Below, one piece after another: positions 6,441 through 42,876 of a DNA stretch of 64,000 nt. Position 1 is the first letter of the stretch; each line of letters opens with the position of its first letter. A program made the translations under genes and the position numbers. Origin of the DNA: Pocillopora verrucosa (lineage: Eukaryota > Cnidaria > Anthozoa > Scleractinia > Pocilloporidae); contig NC_089317.1 of the NCBI RefSeq assembly GCF_036669915.1, positions 310,001 through 374,000 on the forward strand, in the 5' to 3' direction. The notes beneath the pieces were generated by a model, which was not told the DNA's origin, did no database searches, and saw nothing but the letters and a program-made list of their open reading frames with translations.

Positions 6441-9400
6441 ATGGTCTCTTTCTACGTCTTTCTTGTTGTGCTTGCCACCGTTTCTTCTGGTTTTGGTCAA
6501 GATAACGATAACGAACCGTCTTGTGCTACAGTGAAGACTGCCTACAGACAGAAAAGGCTGACAGATAGTGATGTACCGCAATGGGCTGTGAAAGGTATAC
6601 AGTGCTGCATGAAGTGTGCCATACCAACACTCTGTGAGCTTTGTAAATATGTGGTTGTTTCGGACCATTCTCGGTGATATCTACGTTTTGTTAATATTCT
6701 TCTCTCGGCATGGGGTATCACTTAGTAAATTTCGCCTTCAATTCTGATATTATCGCTAACACATTTTGTCTTTACATCAGGGGATGACCTTCGCGTCTGC
6801 CCGAAAGACAACGGTAAGCAATGCTGCTCACAGCAAATGGAAGATCGCTTCGCTGTCTTTGCGAGCGAAGATTTTGACAAAGCGGTCTCGTCGAAAGTTA
6901 GCGAAATGAGGAGACAGTTCCACCTTCAAGAAAAAGCATTTAACGGTGAGTCAGTTACGACAAAATGTACAAAGTGTTAAAAGTGTGTGGATTAAGTTTG
7001 AGTGAAAAATGGATCTGCTAATGGCATTTCGAATATACAGAAACCAGCGATTTTTATGCACGCGCTCTTCACGTTAAGCTGATTTCGAGAAGAAAAACTT
7101 GCCTCTACGTTTATTTTATTTCAAGTTAATCGCGGATCGGTGTGACCGCGAGCATTTCGTTTACAAGGTCATTTTCTTCAATATAGGTCGATCCGACTTG
7201 GTCCACAGGAAATTGAACAAAATTCAAAAGTAAACATCGATGTGCATGCTTGATGCTACTTTACGCATAAGCCTGAAGCAATAATTATGTCACTCTAAAT
7301 ATTCTGTCGTTCCGGTTTTAGGTAATCCCTGAATACGCCAAACAAGAACACACGCTAAGTTACTTAAAGATTTTTATAGCTTTACGAAAATTTTATGCGC
7401 CGCTTAATTTAATTCATGTGGGCAGAAAAGACGATGGAATCGAAGGATTTACCGTAAATTTTGAAGTTATCAAAGTAAATAATGATAGCTGCCTCTGTAA
7501 CCTTATCTTTTCTATCTCCTCTGTGGAATGTCCGAGAAAACAGGCTTAAAATTTATCGGGTTGAGTGTTATAAGCTCCCATGAATCGAGCCTATCTAAGG
7601 AACTAGTACTTTCTGTGGCAGTTCTAATGGATACACCTCGATTTTTCGCGAGGCCAACCGTACGTCTTGAATAGGATTTTACTCTCAATCGAGTTTGTGA
7701 ATAGTTCGTGATGTAATTTCGGCAAAGTCTTCCAAACCGTTAGTATTAAATTACTTTCCGCTCTGAGCTGCCTTCGGTTCTACAACGTGTTCATTTGGTA
7801 AACTTTTCTTAAAGCCGACAGGGCATGCTTATGTCTGTCGAACAATCGAGGTTAACGATGAACCAGCACCGTTTATTTCAGAGCACATGTTGTTGGGTAA
7901 TTACTGCACTGAAGGTTTATCTTTGTCAGTAGAGGTCGCACAAATCACTCCAGTTTCTTCTTTGCTTCAGTGTAATCACAAGCGAATGTTAAATTTAGAA
8001 TCGACTGTTGTTTTGCGCAGTATGCGATTGCCCGAGGCTATTGAATATTGATATTAATCAGAATGGAATATGTTATTTCTTTTATTGTGAAGTTGATTGT
8101 TTTCCCAATTTCGCGGTTTTCTCGGGTCAGCGAACGCGCTACCCAAACTCCGTATATATCTTACCATCTAGTGAAGTACTAATGTCGCGGGCTTTGTTCG
8201 ATCTCATATCCAAAATGTATACTGCATGGGAAAATTGGCAGCGAAAAGATAATGATTTTATAAATCCAACTAAGACAAAACGGAAATTAAAGAAGAAATG
8301 AAACAATCTCTCTCGTAGTATGATCGTTATTGGAGTGGCAATGTTGTGAATTATTAAGTAAAACTTTCGCCTTTTACAGGAATAAGTAATGAAGTTTTGC
8401 AATAGTGAAGTTTTAATATTAATATTTGTTTTGTCATAGCTTTTTTTATGATCTTAGGGCATTGAATATTGATCCCCCAATTTCCATTTAAACCACATAG
8501 TGTCTTGTGGATTGGATTTACAGAATTGTTTGGTCTTTCCAAGTCGTGGTTTAGCTGGGTTAAATACAGTTGTCAAAAGCTTACAAACTACTTCATTTCC
8601 TTTATTTCTCTGAGGAAGTTTGATAAATTAAAAGGCCAATTTTTTTTTTTTTTTGGGAAATGTCTCCTTTTGCATTGCTAGAAGGAATAGAGTGCAGACT
8701 CAATGCACATACCAGTCTTTCGCCAAAGCAGTGTTAAACAGGTTTTATTCCAAGTATATTAAGAATATTAATGAACTTCCCTTCCGAATATATAGCTCAA
8801 ATATGGGCTTTGCCAGTGTCAAAGTGCATTGCTTGAAAAGTGGGTTTGTGAATAAATTCTAAGCAGTGTGCATCAATTATCACCTTATCTTAACCACAAA
8901 GCCATTCTTTATACTGTTTATAACACTCGAGATATCTGTATCTTGCTTTGTCGATCATGAAAAACTTAAGGGCAGACACACAAATAGTTTTTTGGTAATT
9001 ACTCAACAAATATAGCAAAATCCATAGGATTATGCAAATCTCTCATAAATCATTGTGACCTGATGGAATTGAAGCTAACATTTACTCTTAAAAAATTGTG
9101 AAATTTAGGTTTAAAAATATACCTGTTGTGATGTAAATTTCGTGAGACCCAAACTTATGAAAGGTCAGACTGTTTAGCCGCAAAATTACCCTCTGTCATG
9201 TGAAACTTCAGTGGTTTTGCTCTGAGGTTGGGATGACTGTTTTTACTGGTTGCTTGAATATAATGTCAGAAGTTTCTTGTATCTGCGTTTTGTAAAGGTG
9301 TAAAGTATGAATTCAAATTACGGGTACTTGTTTGAGTTTGTTTTATTATATTCTTGGTATTCTAAAGTTCTTTCAAAGTTATGGCTGTTTCCTTTTTTTT

Positions 9401-12400
9401 GTGGCAGTATTGTTATATTTTTTTTCATATCACAAAATGTATCTGTGAACCAGGATCCAGAATATTACTTCAGGAGCTGTAATATTCTCAATTGGTCCAG
9501 GAACTGAGAAGTTTGTAGAATTTGGCCGCTATTATAGAGTTGGGATCCCCCTGATTAGCACAGTTTTCCGGAGGTGGTCAAAATTTCCTTCCTAATTACT
9601 TTTGCCCATAACAACATACCAGTGAAATCCTTTATTTTCAATGTTTGTAATTTTTTTTTTCTAGAAATGATCAGAAATGTTGCAATTCTTTTTCTTCATT
9701 TTTTGCATAAACAAGATATGAGTAACATAATTTTTTTTTTTTCGTTTTGTAATTTTTTTTTTAATGTTCAGAAATGTTGCAGTTTTCTTTTCATTTTTGG
9801 CTTCAAACATCACATGTATAACATCTTTTTTAAATTTTTGTAATTATCTTTTTCTAGAATTGATATGGAATGAACATATGCCTGAAAGCAAAATAATGAT
9901 GTTAATTTTGAAGTATGATTTACATCGTTTACAATAGGCTCATTTGCTTTAAAGAAATATTTCTTCATCTGGATTTGAATAAAACATTGTTATTATCAAA
10001 ATTGTCTGGACTTGCAGACATCACAGGTGATTGTCACCTGTCCATTGTTCACCTAATTTGAGACTTGTCTTAAATGGCATTGTTAATTTCTTGCAGCAAA
10101 AAGGTTTTTCAGTGATAATTGATTTCTGAATTTTCTACCCTGAATTTAATAGTAACAATACAATTCTTCCCTGGATTATAAACTGGCTTTGCTGAACCTT
10201 GGTGTTAGAAGAGTCTACATCCTTACTAAAAGCAAACTGTAATTTTCTTTTCTAATAGTTAATACTGTTTCAAGTGAAAATGAATAGCAGCAGACATATA
10301 CAGAGCTGTGAAGTGACCAAGTTAATGCCCACCACTTTTAGTGTCACTGAAGTTGAGAATTGTTTTGGTATATACCATGCCATGAACCAAGAAATTAGTT
10401 TAATTCTTTCAGTATACCAAAAATGGTTGGAAATTGAACTCTTGTCATCCAGTTTGATGTCATCAGCTGCTCTCTGAGATAATAGCACTTGCTGTATAAT
10501 CACTTTTGGGCTAGCCAATTGGCGTAGGGGAAAAGAACTATTCATTTGTGTGGTATGTATTAGCTCTTAATATTTCAGTCTGTGGAGAGCTGGACCCATT
10601 GTGCGGAAGTAATGTTATTTAAGTTAAGAACAATCTGTCAAACCTCATAATTATGAAATAGTATTTGTTTAGCTGCTACAAGATGTTTTTGATAAATTGG
10701 TTCATAACTGGCTGCTGTCCTCTGTTTTGTGTAAATTTTAAATCAAATTTAATAATTTTGCTGGGAAAAGGTAACATTTTTGGTGATTTATGTGGGTTGA
10801 ACAATAGACATGGCAGTGATGCTAAAGAAGGATTATCATTTAAAAATGTGATGGATGTATGGTCTGAAATGAGTAGGCAATTAATTGAATTATGTTTGTG
10901 TAACAAGCTTGGCATGTTACCATGCACTTCCCCCAGAAAAAAATTGAGATTTGAAACTTTGCAAGATGCAATTTTAAGCATTTTGAGACATAAATAGGTA
11001 ACTTTTTTTGGCCAGATATTGAGGATAGAATAATTTCCTAAATATGTGTTTTCTGTCTTAAATCACAATTCACAAAGAGGGTGGCACAAAATGAACTGGC
11101 AGCCAGTGGGTTGTGACTTCCTACTGGCATCAAATGACAACCTTGGTAAAGATCCTAAGACATGACAATGAGCATGTAGCACTGCATTTGGCTGAATGGG
11201 TCTTGGATTGTTTTCTTAAATGAGAAGTGTGCTTCGGAAACATCCTAATTTAAACTATATTTGAATGGTTACTATTTTTCTTGGGTTAAGATTCCACATA
11301 GTCACATAACCTTTCCAGAATTGTCTTTTAATGTGATTTATATTCAACTGTTCATGTTCCTTCTGACGTGTCATTCCCAAGTGCTTAAACAGATCACCAA
11401 GAAATGGGAAAAAGGGGAGTAAGTCTCTGTTAACCCTTAAATTCCAAAGATCCAACAAGAAATTCTCCCTTTAAAGTCCCTTACATTTCCTTATAAATTT
11501 AACAAGAGAATTACGTGTTCTATCTACTTAGTATAAGGAAACGTTACTCGTTATCCACTTCAGAGAGTTGAAGGGTGAAATCATGGGTATTTGGCCAGGT
11601 TGCTGAATTAGGTTGATACTTTATTGGACACTTAAACTCACTTAAACTCAGTCTGTGACATAATCTTGCAATTACCATTTAAGGGAGCTTGTAAAGTGAT
11701 GTTGTTTTTAAAGCATTCTTCTGTCGTAATGCCTTTTATGTCTCTAATGTTTTTTTCCTCATTTATCCAGCACACTTCCAATCCTTGATCAAGGAATCCC
11801 ACGAATCACTGGATGCTTACTTCAAGAAAGTCTACGTTCACTACTACTCCCAGAACAGCAAGATATTCTCAGATTTTTATGCAGAATTAATGAAATATTA
11901 TGAGGGAGAGTCCAGCTCTGACATGAAAACAATCTTAAACAAACTGTTCAAAATTCTCATGCAAAAAATGTTCCAGATCATGCATGCTCGTTTCCAGTTC
12001 AGCAATTCTTATCTGGAATGTATACCGAAGCATATGGATCAGCTAAAACCTTTTGGGAATTATCCAGAAACGTTAACCTCTGAGTTGAGAAGTGTTTTAA
12101 TTTTTGCAAAGGCCCTTACAAAAGCACTTGATGATGTTCATGATGTTTTCATCATGCTTGAGAACTCAATTTCTTCTAAAGACTGTCAGGATCAACTCAT
12201 CAAGCTGAAATACTGCTCCTGGTGCAAGGCTTTGACATCATTAAAACCTTGTCATCAGTTTTGTATGGATGTACATAAGGGTTGTTTGGCTGACATAGCA
12301 AAGGTGAACAATCAATGGCAACGCTACCTGGCGGCAGTGAACGAACTTTTTGAGAAGCTTTCAGGGGTATACAATATTGAAATTATCCTGTCCAAAGCGC

Positions 12401-15400
12401 ACATCAAGATGTCATTGCCATCATGAATTTCCAAGAACCAACTGTGGCTAAAGCTGTCGAGGAAAGGGTAAATTAAAATTCTTTCTTTTCGTCCCCTTAT
12501 TTTTACTGGAGGTTTCTCCTGAATTGTTGTATCTCACAGCTGGTCCATGTTTGTGGTGGCTTCATGAGCTCCTTTATTTAGTGGGACAGTTTGTGCCTTT
12601 GTATCAGGCAATTCGGTCTATGCCCAGAGGAGATTTCTACCTGATTGCTGTTCACACAAAAAATTGGATCTCTGTTGCTAAGGTCAACAACTAGCATTCC
12701 ATCAGGTTGAAACGGTAAACAAGGCTATGGTTTTTCATTTTGTAGAACACACTTGTATTGAATTATGCATGATGTGACTTCATTACAAGAGAAACTATTA
12801 CATCAGTGATTACAACATGTCTACTTGATGCTGATAAATACATGGAAGAGTTGTTAAAACCAAGATTGTGCATTTCAGACTGGAAAGCCTTTGAAATTGA
12901 ATGAAGATTTATCAATCAGTCTCAGATTTAAGTGACAAGGGAATTTTGAGGGGTATTCTGAAATTTCTCCTTTTTTTTCAGTTTTTCTTGTGTGTCTTTT
13001 TTTGGTCTGTGTGCCTTTTTCTTTGATACAAGTGTTTATGATCTTCTTTAGTGTAAATTCTGTTCTCAATAAATGTCCTGTCACCATATGCTGAAAAAGG
13101 AAGCCTTGGATTCCCAAACTTAGTTGATTAAACATCATTTTCATGCCCTGGAAATGAGATGCTTTTAAAGAACAGTGTATTTATACATGTCTTTGATGCT
13201 GAGTTTTACAGGCTTGCTATTCTAAACTTTCTCAGGTATTCCAAGTATGTGGTAACCCTGAATTAACTAAGAGATCAACAGATGACTTTTTCCTTGAAGG
13301 AAACAATCGACAAAGAAGAGAAAATGATGCTGCTTTACCCAAAAAATCAGCAGATGTCACCTTGGAATCGTAAGTTTAGAAATGTGCCATCTCCGTTTTT
13401 GGACTAGAAGGGTGATGTTAGTTGAACAGCGAGGAAGCTGTTGTGTCTTCATTTTGAACCACTATTTACAAACTTTATTAAGTTGAATACAGATCTGAAG
13501 TAAATTTAATAAATAAGGGTGCAGGATATCCTAAAAAAAGAAGGGCTTGTCGGAGTGGGATATCCTACATTCTTAAATGCTTTAAATTTAATCAATTGAC
13601 TTCAGTAGTAAAGCCCACACACACTTATACACTTGCTTTCATACCACAAGGAACATACATAAGCATATACAGGCACACACAAAAAAACTCAAATTATTTA
13701 AACTGATGACTATTTAATGAGACTTGGTGGCGATCAAAATTATGAATTAAATTAATTAATACATGTCAATATAGAAGCACTTCAATTTCTTTTGGACAGA
13801 TGTAGGCTTCTTGACTTGAAATATTCATCAATAATATTCCAAGTTTTAGGACTTTGGAATTTAATACTGAAAAGGCTTGTAGTTATGAATAAGGGTGCAG
13901 CATGAAATGGTACAAAGAGTTCCGTCTTGAACAAACGTTTGTCTTGGAAGACTTTATGTAATCTTGCCTTGGGAATTTGATTACACAAGGTGTGATCGCA
14001 TTTTTGATAGCAGAAATTCCCTCTTCTCTCAGATTAAAAACAGACTTCAAAGCCGTAATGAAAATGGCTGATAACTTTTGGACTTCGCTACCAGACATGT
14101 TATGTAGTGACATAGCAGCTGAAAAGAATAACCCCTCAGAGTGTTGGAATGGTGCTGGTAAAGGAAGGTAAATATTTCCTCTTGTTCTGTTACCTTGATC
14201 TCATCTCCTTTATATAACTAGACCCTGTGAGCAGGGTAACTGGGATACCTGGATGGTACTGGATCCGTGGAATCAAGTGTAGTGATACTACGCGTGTCGG
14301 ACTAGTATACTGAAATAGTGAGCTCAAGTGTGGCCAATGGCATACACCTGTCTCAAAACATAGGCATGCTATGCATGCAAGAGTTATTTTTGGTAGGGTG
14401 GGTGGATTACTTGAAGCATTGTAAGTGGTCTACATTCTTACAAAAGGAAAGAAGATTATTAACGCGGGAAAGAATGAAAATGTCAAATTACCTCACACAC
14501 AGGTATTTTGTGGTAGATTATGTGTGTTGTGTGTATAAATGTAACCAAAAATAAACTGTATTGGTGCCATGGATACCTGTTAGTACAAGATGTAGACAGC
14601 AGACTGCAGACCGGATACAAAATATAGACTGCAGAGTGGGTACAAAATGCAGACTGAGAATCTGAAGAGTTTTTACATCTGGTATATAATAACATGTCAT
14701 CTTACAGCTTACCGAGCGTCACGCAATCGCTTTTCCGCAATCAGACTTCACGATTATTTGCACTATTGTGGAAAATTCCTGGCCCATTTCTTGATGAAAA
14801 TCGATCGTAATATAATTTCAAGCCTTCAACATAGTTGGTTGGTGTGATGTCTGTACAGATTTTACCAATGTAATTAAAGTAGATGACGTGAATAATAGTG
14901 ATGGTAAAGCAAGCTTAAAACGGCAATAATCGCCAGAAACTAAAACGGATACAAAACGGAGGGTATGAGTAAGTTTTATTGATTTTACGAGAAAAATCTT
15001 CATATGTAAATCGACCATATTTCGTTCCCTATACTATTCCTTATAACGTGTTCAAATTTTCAACAGTTCCTAGCATAACTCACTCTGAGTTACACAACGC
15101 GTGACGCGTTCGTGAATTAATCGTTGGCTTTTTCTTGAGACTTGACCTTGGGTTGCCTGTGACAAGACAATTGAGTAAACAATACTTGACATAAAAACAT
15201 TATACACAAAAAACACGGGGTTTTGGATCATGTTTTTATTAAAAAAGAATATCCATACAACTACAATGAAAACAAATATAAGATTCACCTTTCTGATCGT
15301 GAAATTAATACCATTCGCACTGTTATTGTAGCTACGTTCCCTGGCATCAAGTGAATCCAACATGGCGTCTTTCTTCACAAGCAGTTTGCATCCATTTGAA

Positions 15401-16995
15401 TTTTGTTCTTCAGTCTCACGGTAGTAGTGTTGTTCAATAGATTGCATAGAGTATATGCAGTTTGGTTTCAGATTTCAGATTTTGCTTTATACAACGAGTT
15501 AACGTTTTCAACTAAGACATGGCATACTTAGCATACAAGACATACAAGGCATTCAATGCTTTCATGGCTTTCAAGCGTTCGCGATTCAGTCCGTTCCAAA
15601 ATTACCGCTCAATAACATCTTTTTGTGTGGATTGGCCGCGAACAATACAACTTGTGTATGCGTCTATAAGTATTTTGAGCGTTTGCGCCATAATGCTCCA
15701 GATGATCGTAATCCAAACATGTTGAAATACAAAACGACTAACAAAAGAATTTTATGGGCAAAAATCTCGTGTTCGTCATGTGACCCGGCCCTGTCCGTGC
15801 ATGACAACGTCAATCATCATCAAGATAGCACGCGTGATCAGCATGTGAACACCTCATTGGATCACAGTTAGTTGTCATGGTGTTCGGGGCCCAGTGACCT
15901 CTGGGTACTATTGCGCAATTTTTCCATTTTGTGGCGGAGGAAAAAAAAAAAAAAAAAGACGACAAAAAAACAAAGGCATTTTATGACTGGGCTACCACAG
16001 GTATCCCAGTAATTAGCAAGGTGGTAGTGGCAGTAGGGCTACTGAAAAGATGGTTAGACAGGTATGGTCAGATGAAGACTAGAAGCGTAGTAGTTCAATT
16101 GTCATGATTGTCAATCAACAGATTGACTCTACAGTTGAGAATGACTTGAAATCATGTAACATTTCATTAACCCCTTCAACTCCAATGAGTGACCAAGACA
16201 GAATTTCTATTTCAAGCAAGAAATAAGATTAAGACAAATATCAATAGGAGAATCATTGGTTGAACCAATAGGAAATTCTCTGAACTAACATCAGAACAAT
16301 TGTATGGAAGACAGGAAGGAGAATCAGTAATGAGATCTTAAGAGTGAAATGTTTGCTCCTTACACTATCAGTACAATATCAAGTAGACAAGTAAAGAGAA
16401 TAAAGAAACATATCAATTAGGGGATTATTGCTTGATCCAATTCCAAATTCTCCAAACTAAAATCACATAAATTGTATGGCAGAGAGTAAGGAGAATTAAT
16501 CATGAAATCTTGGGAGTTAAAGGGTTAACAACTCATGAACAAAATATCTGTTTTCTTTTTCAAAGTTACTCAAGCCCTGATGATGGAAAGAATGCCATCG
16601 AAGAAAACCAAGCACCATCTGTGTTAAAAGCTAGTGAAAAATTGAAAAACATTGTGAAAATGATTGAGGAATATTCCAATGCTGCAGTGTATGGGGATGA
16701 AATAAATATCGTCACCACAGACAATGAGGATGATGATGAATCAGGAAGTGGGAGTGGTGATGGAAGTGGAGGCAGTGGAGGCAGTGGAACAAATGAAATA
16801 CCAATTAGCACAGATGCACCACCTACAGACCCCATCAATGGGGTTGATGGCCTTGACAATGATGATAATGTTGTTGGGGGAGGGGTGGGTGGAAACACTC
16901 AAGGACAATCAAGGAACTCTGCTTCACAAACTGTAGTTGGAGCATGGTTGTTCTATTCAGCAATTTTATTGTTGTGTTCTTCACTTGTACCATAA
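6441..16995 (+). CDS. Glypican A, GPC1/2/4/6 class (heparan sulfate proteoglycan, GPI-anchored)
   Basis: Six coding exons: 6441-6594, 6781-6945, 11771-12467, 13212-13369, 14033-14167, 16566-16995. Glypicans are cell-surface proteoglycans that present Wnt, Hedgehog, BMP and FGF ligands. The ATG at 6441 starts a signal peptide of about 19 residues (hydrophobic FYVFLVVLA). An in-frame GTG 42 bp upstream gives no signal-like start. The Cys-rich core follows the family in order: VCPK...CC in exon 2, then YLEC, DQLKPFG, YCSWC and PCHQFC in exon 3. Exon 4 has a likely convertase site RQRR near residue 372, the usual cleavage region. Exon 5 has FW..LP...C and CWNG. Exon 6 carries an acidic stretch followed by SGSGSGDGSGGSGGSG (glycosaminoglycan attachment) and a hydrophobic GPI signal ending at the stop. 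YLEC, DQLKPFG and the serine-glycine context match the GPC4/6 side of the family. Exon 3 is one base short (12412-12417), so the literal frame stops at 12424-12426. With one base added the product is 579 aa, normal for the family. Confidence 0.93.
6946..11770 (+). other. Large intron 2 of glypican A
   Basis: This 4.8 kb intron holds no recognisable exon. It is rich in poly-T runs (for example around 8640-8655 and 9650-9760). A degenerate CCCTTT-type repeat lies at about 11429-11580. An open frame at 10665-10997 opens with TTG, has no splice context and matches no family I know. Confidence 0.5.
12409..12426 (+). other. Apparent one-base deletion in exon 3 of glypican A
   Basis: The frame that runs from 11771 through NIEIILSKAHIKMS ends at TGA 12424-12426. 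The family then expects a segment like xAIMNxQE, and AIMNFQEPTVAKAVEER is encoded directly downstream, but one frame over, with a clean donor after 12467. Only TT stands between the TCA codon (12412-12414) and GCC (12417), where three bases are expected. Exon 3 is 697 nt; 698 nt is needed for phase 1 in and phase 0 out, and the neighbouring glypican B exon 3 (689 nt) does obey that rule. Either the assembly dropped a base or this allele is broken. No splice pair in the region avoids the shift. Confidence 0.85.
14584..14665 (+). repeat. Short tandem repeat of an AGACTGCAGA-type unit
   Basis: About three imperfect copies of a 27-30 bp unit containing AGACTGCAGA followed by GGGTACAAAAT or GGATACAAAAT lie side by side within intron 5 of glypican A. 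Confidence 0.5.
16168..16355 (+). mobile_element. CCCTTT-family MITE, type A
   Basis: Copy in plus orientation with a somewhat decayed right end. It shows the type A internal blocks: GTGACCAAGACAGAATTTCT, the AATTCTCTGAACTAACATC-like block, and AGGAGAAT...GAGATCTT. A second copy follows at once. Confidence 0.75.
16356..16528 (+). mobile_element. CCCTTT-family MITE, type A, 5'-truncated
   Basis: This copy begins inside the element at CTCCTTACACTATCAGTACA and keeps a good right end, TTGGGAGTTAAAGGGTTAA. It is tandem to the previous copy, just before the last glypican A exon. Confidence 0.75.
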
Positions 16996-19900
16996 TGGTA
17001 TTAATGGAAGTGGGATTCCTGTTATTGCCTACAACACAAAACATTTGCATCATACTGTACAGTACGGAATGGATTGTCTGCACTCAGTTTCTTTGAAAAG
17101 ATTATTTAGTTTTGATACTGGTCATCAAGGCATTGTCCATGTTATTCAGTGCAAAAATTTCAATCCAGCCATCATCTCAAACTGTGCAAGAAACAAGCTA
17201 GACTATGAATGAAAAATATCAAGCTTTTTATTTGTGAATATGGGAATTTATTTTTACGAAACATGACTGGAATGAATGTTAATTAATTGATTTGTAAAGT
17301 TTTAAGTTTGCACAACTATTTGAAAAATCAGTAGTTGTTTTTTCACTTCAAATTCCTGCTCAAAATGAACTTCAGTTTGCTACAGTTATCATAAGCTCTT
17401 ACAAATAGTCTATGGTATTAAGACTTGACAGAAATTGTATATACAATTGGCCCCTCTTTTGTGGCACTTTGATGCCCAGTGTTGATAGGAGTTAGTTGGA
17501 AAGGCTTCAAGTGTCATCTCATATAGTATTTGTTTGGATTTTGTAAAAGAGGGAGCTTTGTGCTCAAATTTTTTTAAAACTGCTTTATTGGACATAGTGT
17601 GCCATTTGCTTATACTTTTGGAGCTTTATTAGACACTGGCTGAACTTGAAATGTCATTAAGCTTGTCAAGAGAGGAAGTGCTCCAAATTTAGTTATCAAC
17701 AACCAGAATATAGAAAAGAAGTAGTTTGTAAATCTATGTCACAGGCACTTGGAGATAAGTGCAAGTAACTTTAAGACTGGTTATGCATTGGGTAAAGTGG
17801 TTGGTTGTGAAAAATGTGAAAGCCTCACATTTTCTTCACTCCTTCCTTGAATGAACAAGTTATCTTGTCAATGGCAGGCTTTTAAAAATAACACAAGTGC
17901 AATTTGTGAACGAGTTTTAAAAGTAATCATGGATTGCTTTAATTGTAATTGGCATAGCGTTTGGTTAGATCCAGAAAATTGATTGAGTGGTTTCAACAAA
18001 TGGAACGCAAAACTAACCTAATCATGATTTTTCATTAGTATTCTCCCACGGTTGAAATCGAGAGTTTCTTTTTCATTTGAGCTCTTTGGGCTTTTGTATA
18101 CTTCCCTATTATTGTTATGGGCTGTTGTGATTGTGTTTTTTGGTGGTTTTGTAATACTCAATTCAAAGGTGCTCTTAGTGAGAGGGATGTAATCCTTCAG
18201 TGGTTCAAACTTGTTTGAATAGAATCAGTGACTAATTTCCACCTTTTGAGTTCAGTACTATTATTCATGTTTGTCTCAACTCTTTAACCCCCATGAATGA
18301 CCAAGACAGAATCTCTCCTTACATCCAAATTGTATTGCAGAGAGTAAGGAGAATTAGTGAGGAGATCTAGCGAGTGAAAGACTTAGAAGCTAAGGTGAAT
18401 ATCACTAGAAGCAGGAGTTAAATTGTTAGGACCACTGTTTAAACTGTACTTTTATAGAGAAAGGAAAAAATTTATTTTTCTGATCACTTTGTAACTTGTA
18501 TGAATTAATACTGGTACCATTTGTGTTTTTTAACAATGGGCATTTGATAGACTACTAAAAGAGAAGTCTTGGTATGTGATTAAGAGCTCCTCATGGGCTT
18601 GGTTTTTTTTTTTTTAATGATATTTGATATGATCTGTAGAAATTCTTCCTGGTCTTGGATTTGTCACAATTTTTAACTTGTAAAGAAATCATCTGATGAC
18701 TTATTGAAATTGAAGGAAAATTTTCTGTTTGAAGTATTTTCATTATTGTGGTTAGATAAATTTATATTTTCAAAAGTGGATTCACACACCAAAGTTGCTT
18801 TTCCTTCTTTCAGTGTTCCACTAGTATGTTTTTTTTCTATCAATGTTCAGTACAAAATAATTATCCTGTGACACAGTTGTTAAGTTGGTGTTTCATTATC
18901 AATTTCTTGTAAGGGAAATTACTGTATGCAGAGACAATATAACTAGTAATATACAACAGATTTCAAATAAAAATGACTTCCAATTCTGGAGTCAACACAT
19001 CACTTGCAGTTTGTTAGACTTTTCATGAAAGAATTGTTTTTACATGAGATGGGTTTTTGGTAGTCCAAGGGGATTGTCCACATCTTGATTAAAAATAACC
19101 ATTGTAGTTAATCAACCAAATTTTGAGCTTATAGGCAGCGTAGGCAACGGCAAATGAACACTTTGGTCTGATTCCTGCTAACCGAAGTAATACATCCTCA
19201 AGATGTGTTATGAAGCAGGCCTCTCTCATGGGATAAAGCTACATCCTCACTAGGAATCAGCAATGTGTTTGAGAGAGACAATGAAAATGAATGTTCTACC
19301 CTCACTGGATTGTTTCTGAACACCTCCATCAAGAAGAAGATGCAATGCAAACTGTGGTTTCGCTAAATGACCTGTATAATACATCTTAGCTGGATAAGCT
19401 TGTAGGCATACTTTAATCCTGCTTGTAGCCTTGGACAATTCTAAGTGATGACAATGTATCCATTCATTGAAGCTTCAAACACCCCCACCTCCCCACGCAT
19501 TGTTAAATTGCAGATTGTTAAAATTCTCTCCCTGACTGATGTACTGGATGTTCAAGATGATAGCCAGAAGTTGTATTATCTTCATAGCTCACTGCAGACA
19601 ACGGAACAATTATTTACAAAGCATCGTTTCTGGCATAATTACTTTTATTAATAATCACTCATAATTATAATCAATGATTCTACTTTATCATATGTACACC
19701 TTAAGAAGAACTTGGTGCCATGTCAAATGCCTTTTTTTCTTAATCAAAATTACGCTTTGAGCTAGCAAACATGTTGGCTGTAAATTTATCAATGTATGTA
19801 TTAAAAAGTATAGTTTCTAATACTAATTGTACTTAATCATGAAACTGTGTAAATACTTTGCTAATAATTAGCTGGTGAAGGATCGAATTTGAAGCAATTT

Positions 19901-21517
19901 AAAGTAAGACTGGGAATTTTTCAGTCAAAAAACTGGTATGGCTAAATGAGAAGCTTTCATTCAATAGCCTGAATCCTTACATCACAATTAACTTAACATT
20001 TTAGACTGAAATATATACTAACAAGTACTTTGTAAGCTTGTAACTTGTAGTCTTCACAAAAAATAGAGCCAAGTAAGCTGGGTAATTCAGGCTTGAGCAA
20101 TATGATCAGGCCTTTAACTTTACGTATCTACAAGGTTAATTCAACTGCATGATGGTTTCACACTTTCAAAAAGGCAATGAAAACTGCACTCTCTTATCTT
20201 ACCTACTTAATTGCCACAGACTACATCATCTATCACATCTCTACTGAAATAGAAAATAACCCTTAATGATAACAAAATTCTCGAAGACTCAGAGAAAACT
20301 TTGCTATGAGCTAAGCAACTTGAACTGATCACTATTAATTATAATAATACCTTTTAATAAATTATCATTATTAAAGAATCATTACTACTGTGATTTTATT
20401 AATTCTAGCAGCTGTTTCCACTAAATTTTTTTTCAAATTTTCCATGGAAAGTCTCAATTGGAAAAATAAATAAACTGCCTTATAACTTTGTTACAGTAGT
20501 ATACAAGTCAATGCTTAACTTTAGTCATATTCTGTGATGGACTTAGGAACTATAGTCTCGCATGATGGCAGGTCTCCATTTCTCTGTCCTACCCTCAAAG
20601 AAAATGCCTCCCCGTTAGTTTCAAGCTATTCTTTTCCCAAACCAAAAGACAATCACTACTTGCCTTAGGTGTAACTAGCTCATTATAGGTCAGCTGACTA
20701 TAACTTGAAATCAAATAACTTTTCTCCATGTGCAATCTAACAATTATTCTTTCAAAGTCAGTCCTAATAAGTAATCTTGGGATGCACTGACTCTCAAATG
20801 TTTGGTTCCACCACCTCCTCAACCCTTTGGCTAATCAGATGCAAATAAACCCAAACTTAATCCAACATTTCAAAACTTCTGGTATTACCAGGATCTTTGT
20901 TCTGATCAGCTGTTGCAATTATATTGTTTTCAATTGGCTTCTGTGATACTCAAGCAATTGCATTTTCTTCTAAAAGAAGCAGCATATTGTAATCTTCCAA
21001 GTTACCATATACAAGCTAATAACAAGTTCAGATTTAAAAGAAAAAAAATCAATCTACTAGCTATTACACTAGGGCCTTTATCATTGACCTTTCTTTCCCT
21101 TAAAATTGTTGTCTGGTGAGAAAAGAGCCTCATGGAAAGTAAAAAACATGAACACAAGGGGCAAGGAAAGAGAAAAACAAGTGTCTGCAGACTTCTAAGC
21201 CACACAATTCACCATCTCTCCAGTAATGAATGACTTTTGAATGAATACTGAACATGAACAAATCATCATATTAGTGTGCAATCTAAAAAAATGACCCATA
21301 GAAGTCCACAGACAATATTTTCTTTTGATCTCTCCCTCGTTGCCAACAACAGAGGCTCTGGAAAGGTTAGTTACACTTTGTTTTATACAACAATTTGGAA
21401 AGACTTTGAACTAAGCCTTACACTTCTATCTATTGTCTTTGAGAGAAAACTCTGGTGGAGGACCAATTTCTTGTTGTTTCAATTCCATTTGAGGTCAGAG
21501 TGACTGCTGAGATGTTT
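16996..21517. other. Convergent intergenic region between the two glypicans
   Basis: This 4.5 kb separates the two glypican stop codons and should contain both 3' untranslated regions. I find only short open frames without splice context. An internally deleted type A repeat lies at about 18284-18382, and an AATAAA lies near 18966 on the plus strand. No RNA gene or additional exon is recognised. Confidence 0.5.
18284..18382 (+). mobile_element. CCCTTT-family MITE, type A, internally deleted
   Basis: The left block (ATGAATGACCAAGACAGAAT) is joined directly to the right block (TTGTATTGCAGAGAGTAAGG), with the middle half missing. Confidence 0.6.
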
Positions 21518-24500
21518 CTATCCTCTCGTGAACCATACCAACAGAAGTAGAGTAAAAAACTGTAGCCATGTGACAGCAAGAGATGACGATGAATTACCCT
21601 GAGCTAACACATCACCAGACTTGCGAGTTGATGTAGGGTCAAAACCCCCACCTAGGACTTCATTGCCAGAGCTTTTGATTGACGAAGGTGTTGTAATGAA
21701 ATCAAAGTCATTTTCTGTAAAAAATAAAAACAACCCAAAGGTTTCAATGTATATTGGGATCACAATAGCCGAATGTTGCCTACTTTTAAACTAAGGAACA
21801 AAAATTATTCCGTCAGTTTCTAAATTCTTAGGGATGACATCCAACTTAAAGACAAAACAAACTCCTCCAAGAATCTTTTTAAAAGGATCTCTCCCAGACC
21901 TGTGCCTAAAACTGTCTTTGAGACTGGAATGATCAGTTTCATGAACTAAGTATTGACATGTTCTCATGTGTTTGGAGCTTAAACATAACCAAATGAGTGG
22001 ACCTTTTGAAATATTGTTGCATTGGTAAGAAAACATAAAGGTGAATAGAAATCTTCATACCCCTTTCAAAATCACCGATGTTATTGTTTTCTCCGCTTGA
22101 TGTGCTACCACAGTCCTCATCATCTTCACCACAGCCACTTTCACTGATTTTGTTTCCTAATTATGAAGCATAAATAAACATAAATAAACAAAATTTGCGC
22201 TAATTAGAGTGGCACCAGCATAATTAGAGTACATCCTGACATCCTTTTTGAGTCTTTGATACTGTAAAAGTTTCATTCCTTTGCAATGCAGTACCAACAA
22301 TTAAACAAGCAACCAGTTAGCTGCCAGATTTCATTCACATCTAATTTTTGAAATTTCAGACAAGCAGCACTGCAAGCTGTAACCATTTCGGTCACCATAG
22401 CAACTGAATTTGAAGCATAAGGGGCACATTTGGCAACTTGTATTTGGCAGTCATGTAGGGAGATGAAATATTTAAAATTTAATTATAAGTTCTTTTTTAT
22501 CTGAAGTCCTCATCATCATCATCATCATAGTACTCATGCTACCTTCTTTTCTTCTATAAAATTGTGTTTCTTTCTTGTTCAGATCTCACCTGAATGCTAA
22601 CCATACTTCTTTCTTCAAAGAAAAGCAATATGCTCTGCACTTTATTACATTACCATAGTTATTCGGTTATAAGGCGCACTCGGCTATAGGACGCACCCCC
22701 AATTCGGCAACTTCATTATTGCATGTTTTCAAACTGAAAATATTGCTAAAATACTTGGTTATAAGGCGCACCGTTGGGGATTAAAGGTTGGTCAAGTTTA
22801 TTGTAAATTCTTTCATAAACTTACAAAAAAGCGAAAAAGTTGCATATTGATTTTAATTTACCGTTAATTAACAAAAGCAGAATTGTCGCACATGCGACCA
22901 CGCGCACAAACAAAAAAATTACTGAGCACATGCTCTCGAGCACGTATCATATCTATGCAAATTTGACTTCGCTCGTCTTTTCAGAACCACCATATTTATT
23001 AAAGTCAATGACCAACACTGTGTCCTTTTATTTGCTTGAAATCGTACCAGTAACTGTGATAAAAAAAATTGTTTCGGAAAAATATTCACCTATAAGACGC
23101 ACCCAAACTTTGGCAGTAATTTTTAGTAGAAATTAGGAATTTCTTGAAAAAAACGGTGCACCCTATAACCGAGTAACTATGGTATTTAATATTTTACAAT
23201 TTTTTTTTCCATTGGAATCAATTATAATTCCAAGTTGCCCTTTCAACCCTAATAAATATAAAAGCTGATTACCATTTTTGTCACCACTCCCACTCCCACT
23301 ACCACTTCCATCAAGTTCATCATCATCATCATCTCTTGTGATAGTATACTTTTCCATCATTTTAATCTGGCCATGAATCTTCCTCTCAAGAAACGTCAAG
23401 TGGTTTTTACTCTCTAGTGACAAAGATGAATCACCTTGCTTTGGCTCATACCTGTAGAAAATGATATTAACAGAGAATATAATTTGTGAAGGGAAAAAAC
23501 CTAAATGTATTCAATTAACAACCAATTGTATGTGTTTTTGTTGAGGAAATGGTCTATGAACCTATACAGACCAATCATACTGGCAAAAAAAGGTTTTGAA
23601 AATTTTAAATGAGGGCAATTTTGAGGGATGAAATAAATTTAAAGATGTAAAGAGAAGGACAAATTAAAATTGCAGTGAAAATTTAATACAAAATCGAAAA
23701 ATCTTGATTACAATGAAAAGCTATCTGATCAAAATTCCAAACAAATAAGGTGAGATTTTAACTAGGCTCTTAAAATGTTTAAACTCTTTATGTTGAGTGG
23801 TATTGCATGCCCAACTCCTGGTGCAGCACAGGAAAACAAAGAGTCACGAATAGTAGGTTCCAAATTGAATTACCAATTACTTGTCTTTACCTTGCTACAA
23901 ATGTTCCATTCCAACAGTTGTCAATGTTTTCCTTTTGTGAAGCAAGACCATCAACTTCACAAAACTCTCGAGCTAAATCGTGGAAGAATGAGTTGAGAGC
24001 ATTCAGCTGCCTATGAACAGCATCCATTTTAGCAAAGAGTCGCTCTTTGACATGAGGAGTCGGTGAAACAGATTCTTTATAAGGAGAAGTCTTTGCATCA
24101 CTGTAGGAAGGTTCGCCACACTCCTTCAAAACCTGTTAACAATATTGATATGAGTAACTGTTTTTAAGAACATGAACTAAAACAATAATTTTAGCAAAAC
24201 CATTTTAACAAGTTTACTGACCATCAGTCTCAGAAAACCATTAATACCTTGAAAATATAGCTGCAATTCTTACTGTGTTATTACCAACCACATAGGAGAT
24301 CAGTAAATAAAACATTAAGTCTATGCTTGAGATAAGTGGCTTATCCTAGTTTCCATAGCATAAAGCAACAAGGAGTATAAATACTCCCACCTGGATGGGA
24401 TGCCAATCAATCACAAGGTTATCCCCCCTCCAATTTCATCAGGCTTCCCTGACAATTTGTGGGTAACCATTTATACTCCTAGGTAGAGAGAGGCACTGTA

Positions 24501-27500
24501 AATAAAGTAAAATGTTTTGCTTGAGGAAATGAAAGCAAACCACAAAATCACGCACAAATTAGTGTTATTTCCTACTGTTAACATTTCTCTTGCCTGGCTA
24601 ACTTATTTTCCCAAACATGTCTTCCAAAGCAGAACCAACCAGGAGAATTCCTATTATCCCTTGATAAGATGCTAGTCCAATACAAGGTTACCAATCCCCT
24701 TCCCCCCCTCCCCCCCAGCAATTAGTCAGGTTTCCCTCTACACTCCTGGGTGGAGAGAGGCTCTGTGAGAGTAAAGTATCTTGCCCAGGAACACAACACA
24801 GTGACCCAACTAGGGCTCGTGTCCAGACCCCTTCACCTGGAGTCCAGCACACTAACCATTGGGTGACTACATTTTCTAGGTCCTGGATATTAGATTCTTT
24901 AATTATGTAACCTTACCTGCGGCATTAAATTAGCCTTCTGTAGTAACATAAAGGTGGCAGCATGCCATAAGTCTGTATGAACAGAGTTTAAAAAGTTCTC
25001 CAAATTTGAGTTTCCAACACTTTTAGCCAGTGAGAGAACAGTGTCTATTAACTGGCCCCACTTTCTTTGAAGTTGAGCTTCAGAGAGCAGACATTTTCTT
25101 GTTGTAGCCATACAAAATTCATAACATGGCTTCACTTGGGTAAGACCCTGGCATAATGAACAAAATTTCATCTCCAAAAGACCATTTTTGCATCCATCTG
25201 TGAAGTTGAACTGTTGTGCCAAGCTTAATACCTCTACTCCAAATTTCAGGCCTTTGAAGAGGCTTCCCACTGGCTCAAAAACCTCCTCAAACTTACCAAG
25301 TAACTCTGCTGGGCGAGTACCGAATGGTTTAATTATATCCATGTTATCTTTTAAACAACTTTTATACTTTGCTGAGAGAGTCTTTCCTTCTGGATTGAAA
25401 TATCTTAACAGCATTGGAAAAGAACTGCGAAAGAATGCATTCACAATGTCTTCTAGTTCTTGTTTATCCTCAGCCAAATAGTTTTCAAGGTCTTTGAATA
25501 ACTTAGATACTGCAATGACTTCATCTGCAGTAAGATTTGGTTGTTTACCCAGTAAAAAGGTAATACTCTGTCTGTTACTTTCTTCCATGAGACTATGAAA
25601 ATGCCCTAGAAATAAAACAAAATGTAATTTCAAATAAATGAAGTGGAAAAATAGAATATATTTGTTGAATTTTTTTGTATAATAAAAATATTTGGTAAAA
25701 CAAAAATTCAAACTCAACTTTAAATTAAAACAAAATTGAAAAAAAAACAATGATAAACAGTAACATCCTGATGAAAATTGGGTCAAACTTTCACAACAAT
25801 TTAATGCCCTATTCCACTATTTAAAAAAAAATCTCTGGGGTTAGAATTTTATCAATGCATTATCTTACATTCAGAGGGTCAAGGCAAATTTGCACTCTAT
25901 TGTTTAATTCATACCAATCCGCAAAGGGCAAATTAACATTATGAACTTCTAACTGAAGAGGTTGTTTGCAGAATACTCTATGAATAAAATTAAGGTAGCT
26001 CGAGTGATACGTCAGTAACTAAAGAAAAGTTTCCAAACTTTAAACAGTATGACTTCTGTTTTAATATTGAAGAAAATCAAAATACTGCAACCAGTTGGTT
26101 TTTAAGTCAATAGCACTTCAGATGCAAAACAAAAAGCCAGCACCTACTTGTGGTAAACAATCAGTAATATCAGCAGACAATAAGGTTCTTGGCTTTGCAT
26201 TATTTACATAAAAGAAATTGGTTTAATACGTTCCAGATCTTTTGTCACTTGTACCAAAATTTGCATATTTACTTTTCTTAAACATAGAGAACGAAAAGGA
26301 AAGGCGCCGTAAGATTCATTTCAGATCCAAAAAAAAAAAAAAAAAAAGACAAATGGTTTGGTTGAGATGTGTTTCACTTTATAGCGACTCTGTATGGTGC
26401 ATCGTGTCTCCCTATTTCAAAAAAGCTCCCGCTGGGTCAGAGAGGGCTTCAAATTTCTGACGATTTATATCCGTTCATTAATTTAGAACGTCAAACATAT
26501 GAGATCGGAATTGTCTTGCCCGCAGGCGGCTCTGATGCGACTACGAAGATAAAGACAACCTTCTAAGCGCAGGAGAATTTTTAAAATGCTTTAGAAACAC
26601 GCGATCACGAACACAGATGAACAAAGTTTAGGTCATGCTAGTTTTGTTATTGTTTTCGAGTCTTCTCAGGCTCTACTGTCATAATTTGCATAACCCAACT
26701 TCTATGCTAGATTTCATCGCTAGATTAAGTAACAAGAGCATGATTTATTCTTCGATAGCTGAATTGTTCATGATAAATGTGTGCGCTGGGAGGTCTTCTG
26801 GAAAATGACAATTTTTCTACCATTCTCATGGAATATATCATAATTAAGATTTCAACACAAATATCAACAACAAAGGAGTTATTGCATTGATATTTTATAT
26901 TAAAGGCCAGAAACACGCTTTAGCCTGGCAAAATCCAATTCCTTCGCAATCGAAATATCCAGACTATAAGTCCGTTTTCTGTGTTTAAATCACATTCAGA
27001 GTGCAGCGCTTAGGTTCCTAACTATTCAAAATCCATCATGCGTTATGCGTTTGTTGAATTGTTTTAAGAAACATCGAGGAATAGAAAATTAAATCATGAG
27101 GTGTCAGAAAATTGTACTCAATATTAAATATTAAATTAAGGAAGAGTAGACTGATAAAAAAAGTTCTAAGTTTACGATTTTAAGCATATTAACGCACTTG
27201 AGACAGGAAAAAGAAAAAGAAACAATTCCGAGCATGTTTGAGCCATAAGCTAAAATGCTCAAGTACCTCATTATTACAATACCCCTATAGGAAATCGGCG
27301 TGAAGAGCAATTGATTAGGCATAGCATTGTTTAGAATACCTCGAGAGAGCCCGAGTTTTTTGTTAGAGTATGATCTGCTCTTTCTTTCTACTTTTGGCTA
27401 CAATAACTAACCGAACCGCAAATCCCAAGGCAGTTGCGAGCACTCAAGTAGCCTGAAGAATTTGTTTATACAAAGCAAATGATAGAGTGCTTTTCATCAA

Positions 27501-27933
27501 CTTACAAAATAGTTCAACGAACTGTGGATCGATGGCTTACCTTTCAAATCGTCAAAAAGCGATAACATGGCTTTCTTTGCAGCCATATATTTAGTTTGCA
27601 ATTGAGTCTTGATATTCTTCGCAGCTTTAATGCGAAGAGATGCTTCCGTTTGTCTTGTACAGCACGTTTTATTCGTGTGACTAACACAAACTTGCGGCTC
27701 CTTCCCTGTCAAAGATAAATTGTGTCAGAGTAAGTTCGATAAACACTCGACCACTCGTGAAATATTGGAGTCTTCCACTTCTAACCTTTGTCAGGAACTT
27801 GCGGATTCCATTGGGCGTTCGCTCCAAGCTGTTCTACTGAACAAGACAATTGCTGAGTGTCGCATTCGGCATGCCAAGCTTTCAAAATAAAACTCAATAA
27901 ACAAACCACGTGAATCTTGTGAAAAGAACCCAT
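21518..27933 (-). CDS. Glypican B, GPC3/5 class (heparan sulfate proteoglycan, GPI-anchored)
   Basis: Seven exons in transcription order: 27933-27786, 27705-27541, 25605-24917, 24132-23891, 23451-23273, 22156-22061, 21714-21518. Lengths sum to 571 codons plus stop with every phase matching. Exon 1 encodes a signal peptide (HVVCLLSFILKAW). Exon 2 has QVCVSH...TCC. Exon 3 has the paired-cysteine block FCSLCQGL..VKPCYEFC after GVEVL, which resembles GPC3 closely. Exon 4 has CG.P and ends NCWNGTFVA; exon 5 starts RY and carries DDDDDELDGSGSGSGSGD for glycosaminoglycan attachment. Exon 6 holds ESGCGEDDEDCG, which parallels the acidic Cys pair next to the SG site of GPC3/5. The last exon ends in a hydrophobic GPI signal (WLQFFTLLLLVWF). 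Introns 1 to 3 share phases 1, 1 and 0 with glypican A. The A intron within the CG.P-to-CWNG segment is absent here. Confidence 0.94.
22508..22527 (+). repeat. CATCAT microsatellite
   Basis: Short run of ATC triplets in an intron of glypican B. Confidence 0.7.
22653..23182. mobile_element. Non-autonomous DNA transposon with TA target duplication (Tc1/mariner-like)
   Basis: The ends form a terminal inverted repeat. The left end reads CCATAGTTATTCGGTTATAA and the right end, read inward on the other strand, is CCATAGTTACTCGGTTATAG. Each end is flanked by TA. Further copies of the motif ATAAGRCGCACC lie inside both ends (near 22690, 22760 and 23092). The 530 bp element has no transposase; the open frame across it is built partly from the terminal repeats. 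It sits in intron 5 of glypican B. Confidence 0.8.
24373..24530 (-). repeat. SINE-like repeat, family 2, partial
   Basis: On the minus strand this contains the same blocks as the copies at 24650-24866 and 57735-58055: ACAGTGCCTCTCTCTACC, AGGAGTATAAATGG, and the CCTTGTGATTGATTGGCATC-like segment. The tRNA-like head is missing. It lies in the intron between exons 3 and 4 of glypican B. Confidence 0.6.
24650..24866 (-). repeat. SINE-like tRNA-derived repeat, family 2
   Basis: Read on the minus strand it opens with a polymerase III A-box-like TGGTTAGTGTGCTGG, followed by a degenerate B-box region (GGTCTGGACACGAGCC). Then come the body blocks TGTGTTGTGTTCCTGGGCA and CCAGGAGTGTAGAGGG, and a G-rich stretch. 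The copy at 57735-58055 shares this order. Confidence 0.65.
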
Positions 27934-30041: not shown

Positions 30042-30528
30042 CTTTCACTATAACAGTAGGGGTATTTCTTGTCCCAGTGTTGAAACGGAAAACACGGGAA
30101 ATGAGGAATAGAGTGTCAAAATTTCTTAGAATATACAGCAAACGAATAACAAAATGTTGAAGCTCTTTCAGCTTTAGGAAGGAATGGCGCACGCCACTTT
30201 TCCCGCCACTAACACATTTCCATTTTCCCGCCAGTTGACGCTGGCGCGTTTCTCAATTTAGAATAGAAACAGCCACAAAAAGAGAAAGGAAAATAAAATG
30301 AACCACGCAGATTGTAAATTTCTAGGCTCAATAATCTCCTATAAATTAAATTATATTGGAAAAAAATTCTTAAGAATAGTGAATAAATGAAGGGCCACAA
30401 TCTTCTCTTCACTACGCCGTCATGAGAGGAGAATTTGGAATTGGATCTGTGCTGATCTAAGCCAATGGTTCGTTTTCGCGCCAAAATAAATTTCGAAAAT
30501 ATTAGCATACATTTAATTGAAATCCAAG
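30042..30528. promoter_or_regulatory. Probable bidirectional promoter with three E2F-like sites
   Basis: The region carries TTTTCCCGCC at 30198-30207 and at 30223-30232, and the near-palindromic TTTTCGCGCCAAAA at 30473-30486. All fit the E2F consensus TTTSSCGC. A CCAAT at 30462-30466 sits just before the third site, and the RNF168 start codon follows 43 bp later. E2F sites are typical of S-phase and DNA-repair promoters, which suits RNF168. That the minus-strand ORF shares the promoter is inference. Confidence 0.6.
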
Positions 30529-30536
30529 ATGGCGGC
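30524..30536 (+). promoter_or_regulatory. YY1-type motif over the RNF168 start codon
   Basis: The sequence CAAGATGGCGGCC contains AAnATGGCGGC, the strong YY1 motif that in animal housekeeping genes often covers the start codon just downstream of the transcription start. The ATG is 30529-30531. Confidence 0.55.
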
Positions 30537-42791: not shown

Positions 42792-42876
42792 TTTGTTTTT
42801 ACTTGGGAAACAGCTGACTTGTAATAAATGCAGTCTCGTTATAAAAACCTTAATGCATTTCGGACGAAGTGCCAAC
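42792..42876. promoter_or_regulatory. 85-bp bidirectional promoter between PELP1 and COG3
   Basis: Only 85 bp separate the two start codons. Both ATGs lie within YY1-type motifs facing away from each other: AAAATGGCGGCC on the minus strand at PELP1 (42795-42784) and AACATGGCGGCTC on the plus strand at COG3 (42874-42886). The interval contains CAGCTG (an E-box) and a TATAA-like ATAAAAAC. The PELP1 frame stays open through it. The two 5' untranslated regions must be very short or overlap. Confidence 0.7.

Follow-up and report, generated by a model that had tools for sequence, protein, structure and literature searches.

A tail-to-tail pair of glypican genes in the coral Pocillopora verrucosa that likely joins the two glypican classes

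Glypicans are proteoglycans of the cell surface that tune growth signals. In humans, the glypican genes GPC3 and GPC4 are located at Xq26, and GPC5 and GPC6 at 13q31-32. In each pair, a GPC3/5-class gene lies beside a GPC1/2/4/6-class gene, and passages of PMC3828384 describe human GPC5 and GPC6 as adjacent and GPC3 and GPC4 as a cluster. They also report that the adjacency of human GPC5 and GPC6 has been lost in fish, and that zebrafish gpc5b is contiguous with gpc1a on chromosome 22, again joining one gene of each class. The same passages, citing Filmus et al. 2008, call the GPC3-GPC4 cluster well conserved across Eumetazoa. This sentence was the one statement on linkage outside vertebrates found among the matches listed in our literature search, and the idea of an ancient linkage is at least partly published there. 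Drosophila also has one gene per class, dally and dlp (excerpts of PMC3276178 and PMC3828384). Among cnidarians, Nematostella has a Glypican 1/2/4/6 (Bause et al. 2016, as cited in an excerpt of PMC12164971), and no mention of a GPC3/5 neighbor of this gene was found in the excerpted literature that we examined. A GPC6-type glypican is reported to be absent from Trichoplax (excerpt of PMC3789837). Here, we describe two neighboring glypican genes, A and B, in a 64,000-nucleotide stretch of the genome of the coral Pocillopora verrucosa (contig NC_089317.1, positions 310,001 to 374,000; hereafter, the window). With a probability of roughly 70%, we read them as one gene per class, derived from an old duplication that would predate the split from the human and fly lineage, and neighbors ever since.

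The two genes, whose models were built from sequence alone, lie tail-to-tail. Gene A occupies 6441-16995 on the forward strand in six exons, and gene B occupies 27933-21518 (stop codon included) on the reverse strand in seven. Their stop codons are separated by 4522 bases, which bears out the convergent pair ~4.5 kilobases (kb) apart that a sequence-only reading of this DNA had described. All 11 introns (five in A, six in B) begin with GT and end with AG, and the window contains no unknown bases. Both proteins matched the Pfam Glypican family (PF01153; curated cut-off 26.4 bits), A with 382.5 bits (E 5.1e-114) and B with 231.2 bits (E 3.5e-68). Because their identity to one another is only 24% over 541 aligned columns, we rejected a recent tandem copy. 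A translated search of the window with both proteins (tblastn) yielded, beyond the two genes and their cross-matches, a best row of E 0.32, and therefore no third glypican copy was seen in the window. Vertebrate pairs run head-to-tail over very long distances, unlike this closely spaced, tail-to-tail arrangement, and to our knowledge Drosophila dally and dlp, unlike A and B, are not adjacent. The parts of the pair are as follows.

6441..6594, forward strand: gene A exon 1, start codon at 6441, hydrophobic N-terminus
6781..6945, forward strand: gene A exon 2, 165 nucleotides, the same length as exon 2 of gene B
11771..12467, forward strand: gene A exon 3, N-lobe cysteines, with a frame break between 12381 and 12423
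13236..13369, forward strand: gene A exon 4, furin-like site RQRR at residue 363
14033..14167, forward strand: gene A exon 5, CWNG region
16566..16995, forward strand: gene A exon 6, Ser-Gly repeats and a hydrophobic C-terminus that resembles a glycosylphosphatidylinositol (GPI) signal by inspection, stop codon at 16993-16995
16996..21517, no strand: spacer of 4522 bases separating the stop codons, in which no third piece of a glypican was seen
21518..21714, reverse strand: gene B exon 7, hydrophobic C-terminus, stop codon at 21520-21518
22061..22156, reverse strand: gene B exon 6, containing ESGCGEDDEDCG
23273..23451, reverse strand: gene B exon 5, Ser-Gly repeats
23891..24132, reverse strand: gene B exon 4, CWNG region
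24917..25605, reverse strand: gene B exon 3, N-lobe cysteines and CSLCQGL..VKPC
27541..27705, reverse strand: gene B exon 2, 165 nucleotides, the same length as exon 2 of gene A
27786..27933, reverse strand: gene B exon 1, start codon at 27933, hydrophobic N-terminus

To assign the genes to classes, we compared them with the four glypicans that have solved structures (GPC1, GPC2, GPC3, and Dally-like), which stand behind 11 listed sequences. Gene A scored highest against GPC1 (224.5 bits), followed by Dally-like (186.1), GPC2 (163.8), and GPC3 (129.5), and over 372 alignment columns it was identical to GPC1 at 109 and to Dally-like at 106 positions, with 87 for gene B. When we counted residues exclusive to one pair among the six sequences, B and GPC3 shared 25, the highest of the 12 pairs counted (15 are possible), followed by A and Dally-like with 20 and by A-GPC1, A-B, and B-GPC1 with 17 each. 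The GPC3/5-like segments that had been pointed out in B also held, as its GVEVL and CSLCQGL..VKPC match GIEVI and CSYCQGL..VKPC of GPC3. The GPC1/2/4/6-like segments named in A (YLEC, DQLKPFG, and NFQE) fared less well. Trees place A on that side, but KPFG is not diagnostic of the class, given that B carries IKPFG and GPC3 carries LKVFG, and NFQE is read in another frame than YLEC and DQLKPFG, past a frame break that had been overlooked.

We then evaluated all 105 unrooted six-taxon trees in five analyses, which drew on two alignments and used LG+I+G4 twice, LG+C20+F+G twice, and WAG+I+G4 once. In all five, the best tree joined B with GPC3 and placed A on the side of GPC1, GPC2, and Dally-like. 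A sixth run supported B+GPC3 with an approximate likelihood-ratio test value of 96.5 and an ultrafast bootstrap of 98, and the group of GPC1, GPC2, and Dally-like with 55.8 and 64, respectively. The best tree uniting A with B was worse than the best tree by 7.5 to 10.7 log units, and the best tree uniting A with GPC3 by 7.5 to 10.6. Forcing A and B together shrank their internal branch to almost zero. When data were simulated under the best A+B tree (parametric bootstrap), none of 120 data sets reached the observed difference of 9.2 log units (simulated maximum 2.8). Although the trees are unrooted, the root that needs the fewest duplications would fall between B plus GPC3 and the rest. Together, we consider it likely, though not proven, that A belongs to the GPC1/2/4/6 class and B to the GPC3/5 class.

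A number of results weigh against this assignment and the history built on it. The comparison set of six sequences was without GPC4, GPC5, GPC6, Dally, and the known cnidarian glypicans. In phmmer searches, B scored higher against GPC1 (128.4 bits) than against GPC3 (118.8), whose chains are shorter, with Dally-like at 85.1 and GPC2 at 79.2. By identity, GPC3 was also no closer to B (86 of 372 columns) than GPC1 (88) or A (87). The approximately unbiased (AU) test at 0.05 retained 5, 16, 11, 28, and 4 of the 105 trees across the five analyses, and only 3, 7, 3, 15, and 3 of these joined B with GPC3. The retained trees that united A with B numbered 1, 3, 1, 3, and 0, and those that united A with GPC3 numbered 1, 3, 3, 3, and 1. 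The best A+B tree was kept in four of five analyses (P = 0.065, 0.106, 0.079, 0.112, and 0.036) and the best A+GPC3 tree in all five (P = 0.064, 0.104, 0.079, 0.111, and 0.062), and therefore the AU test alone does not settle the class split. Three trees with B+GPC3 also lay within 2 log units of one another, which makes any placement of A among GPC1, GPC2, and Dally-like tentative. Moreover, the two longest branches are those of B and GPC3, with B the longest of all, which makes long-branch attraction a worry. The parametric bootstrap speaks against such attraction, assuming LG+I+G4. It was run under that one model on one A+B tree with fitted long branches, and B+GPC3 beat A+B in 57 of the 120 simulations, by at most 2.8 log units. 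The two-class assignment of the sequence-only reading was thus the best tree throughout, with rivals retained by the AU test, and the sister relationship of A and B that it had named as one outcome that would overturn it was never the best tree, even though that test mostly retained it.

Gene structure offered a further comparison, which we made on the alignment of A, B, GPC1, GPC2, GPC3, and Dally-like. Intron phases are 1, 1, 0, 2, and 2 in A, with the phase of 0 valid only for the frame that follows the break in exon 3. In B they are 1, 1, 0, 2, 1, and 1. By alignment column and phase, four introns are common to both genes (columns 56 and 111 in phase 1, 349 in phase 0, and 448 in phase 2), one is found in A only, and two in B only. 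The sharing of the first three introns in phases 1, 1, and 0 had been noted before, a count that proved one short. An excerpt of PMC8991249 names the GPC3 variant c.175+1, by which intron 1 of human GPC3 interrupts codon 59 following its first base. When residues are numbered by the furin-like site at R355 and R358 (excerpt of PMC9596381), this codon is the Gly at column 56. Intron 1 therefore has the same position and phase 1 in A, B, and human GPC3, so that the shared introns show common descent rather than a sister relationship of A and B. Published positions of GPC3 introns 2 and 3 were not found in a single literature search for them.

The neighborhood itself also needs a cause. By simple arithmetic, with 30,000 genes assumed, two given genes would be adjacent by chance with a probability of ~7e-5, and a tandem origin is the natural explanation. 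Such a duplication could be confined to this animal's lineage, with A and B as sisters and their likeness to different classes a product of the fast evolution of B. Same-family neighbors that lie tail-to-tail are often local copies, the two genes share four introns, B sits on the longest branch, and the AU test retains A+B in four of five analyses, as given above. Still, we consider a lineage-specific duplication unlikely: the identity of A and B is low, A is nearer to GPC1 and Dally-like than to B, no simulation under A+B reached the observed difference, and the forced A+B branch all but vanished. Intron 1 is also present in human GPC3, so the shared introns do not single out A+B. With B grouping with GPC3, A with the remaining glypicans, and a common gene structure, the duplication appears to be ancient, and the adjacency is most simply explained by linkage that was kept. 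If that duplication founded both classes, then the adjacency is itself old. The proposal that the neighborhood dates to the founding tandem duplication is accordingly favored by the old split in the best trees and by the common introns, and is held back by the rival trees that survive the AU test.

Even with the classes correct, the genes could have parted after an old duplication and been rejoined in this lineage. The convergent orientation is unlike the vertebrate order. Glypican neighborhoods also change, as in zebrafish, where the gpc5-gpc6 neighborhood was lost and gpc5b lies by gpc1a (excerpt of PMC3828384). However, a chance reunion would be as rare as any other chance adjacency, the same source calls the GPC3-GPC4 cluster well conserved in Eumetazoa, and positions 1-32000 contain no inverted repeats of at least 40 bases (exact seed 14) that would hint at recent rearrangement. 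We regard this reunion as somewhat less likely still than a local duplication. On the result of the same repeat search of positions 1-32000, a recent repeat-driven inversion was rejected. A last concern, which also counts against an intact pair, is that gene A may be a decaying pseudogene and the two genes no longer a functional pair. The frame of its exon 3 shifts within 12381-12423, and the alignment places the break near 12385-12390. The first frame meets a stop codon at 12424-12426; upstream, the frame that continues into exon 4 is closed at 12378. Yet the remaining exons are open with intact splice sites, and the protein retains its Ser-Gly repeats and a hydrophobic C-terminus. In our judgment, a lone frame break is more readily explained by a slip in assembly or base calling, or by a rare allele; an assembly slip or allele is thus most likely, and decay of the gene would be quite improbable, the least probable of these alternatives.

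The proteins carry the cysteine pattern and the Ser-Gly repeats of glypicans. Conserved glypican cysteines number fourteen. Before the C-terminal tail, 13 of the 14 cysteines of A fall in columns invariant across the six glypicans, and the first lies outside the GPC3 piece compared. By inspection of the translations, both proteins have hydrophobic N- and C-termini, candidates for a signal peptide and a GPI-anchor signal, respectively. Ser-Gly pairs near the C-terminus begin at residues 487, 489, 491, 495, 498, and 501 in A, which has others at 16 and 304, and at 464, 466, 468, 470, 481, 495, 522, and 539 in B. In exon 6, B also contains ESGCGEDDEDCG, which may be GPC3-like; no GPC3 sequence covering that part was found, and the search for a solved structure covering the Ser-Gly region of GPC3 gave five matches, all weak and unrelated. 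A furin-like RXXR site is described in the C lobe of glypicans (excerpt of PMC9596381). Gene A has RQRR at residue 363 and RQKR at 36, whereas no RXXR is present anywhere in the B protein, and therefore only A of the two would be a candidate for cleavage by furin-like enzymes.

Under the favored reading of an old pair, a single duplication would have made A, a GPC1/2/4/6-class member, and B, a GPC3/5-class member, before the lineage of this animal parted from that of humans and flies. The genes would have been neighbors since, with at least one of them reversed relative to the head-to-tail vertebrate order. As predicted from their family, the core proteins would pass through the secretory path and sit at the cell surface via a GPI anchor, with heparan sulfate chains on the Ser-Gly repeats of each. 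The pair might then tune Wnt, BMP, Hedgehog, or FGF signaling, a function suggested by the family as described in the available part of PMC3828384. It is doubtful, in our estimate, that both classes were held together since before the cnidarian-bilaterian split by shared regulatory DNA or overlapping 3' ends, which would make the pair a functional unit of co-regulated co-receptors rather than a neutral relic.

Several repeats lie in and around the genes. Intron 5 of B contains a 534-base element (22651-23184) that looks like a non-autonomous DNA transposon; its inverted ends agree at 26 of 29 bases, and each terminates in TA. Intron 3 of B holds a stretch (24730-24900) resembling a short interspersed element, possibly akin to common coral and anemone repeats. 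A 59-base dispersed repeat occurs in three copies (16297-16355, 16469-16527, and 18327-18385), and its 20-base core had no exact matches in viral and prokaryote contigs. Searches for relatives of exon 3 returned pattern matches, none of them confirmed, in viral contigs (exon 3 of both genes) and in prokaryote contigs (exon 3 of A, the only one scanned). Beyond gene B, a RING reading frame on the forward strand (30517-30909) has RNF168 as its best match (E 3.9e-28). Forward-strand reading frames at 42736-52561, when joined with X, match Pfam COG3_N and COG3_C of Golgi complex subunit 3. On the reverse strand, reading frames at 38078-42884 may be exons of one protein, for which Pfam gave no identification. 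Tandem arrays are present at 61639-61786 (7-base units, ~21 copies) and 47296-47403 (20/40-base units). Rfam (gathering score) and transfer RNA searches of the window returned no hits.

If our reading is correct, the cnidarian pair would provide an outgroup example of the neighborhood described in vertebrates and would give a date for the duplication from which the glypican classes arose. The pair would also suggest an ancestral glypican gene structure, with introns 1-3 in phases 1, 1, and 0. The loci of vertebrate glypican pairs are much larger than the 21.5 kb of this one, and this compact locus could serve for testing shared regulation of both glypican classes.
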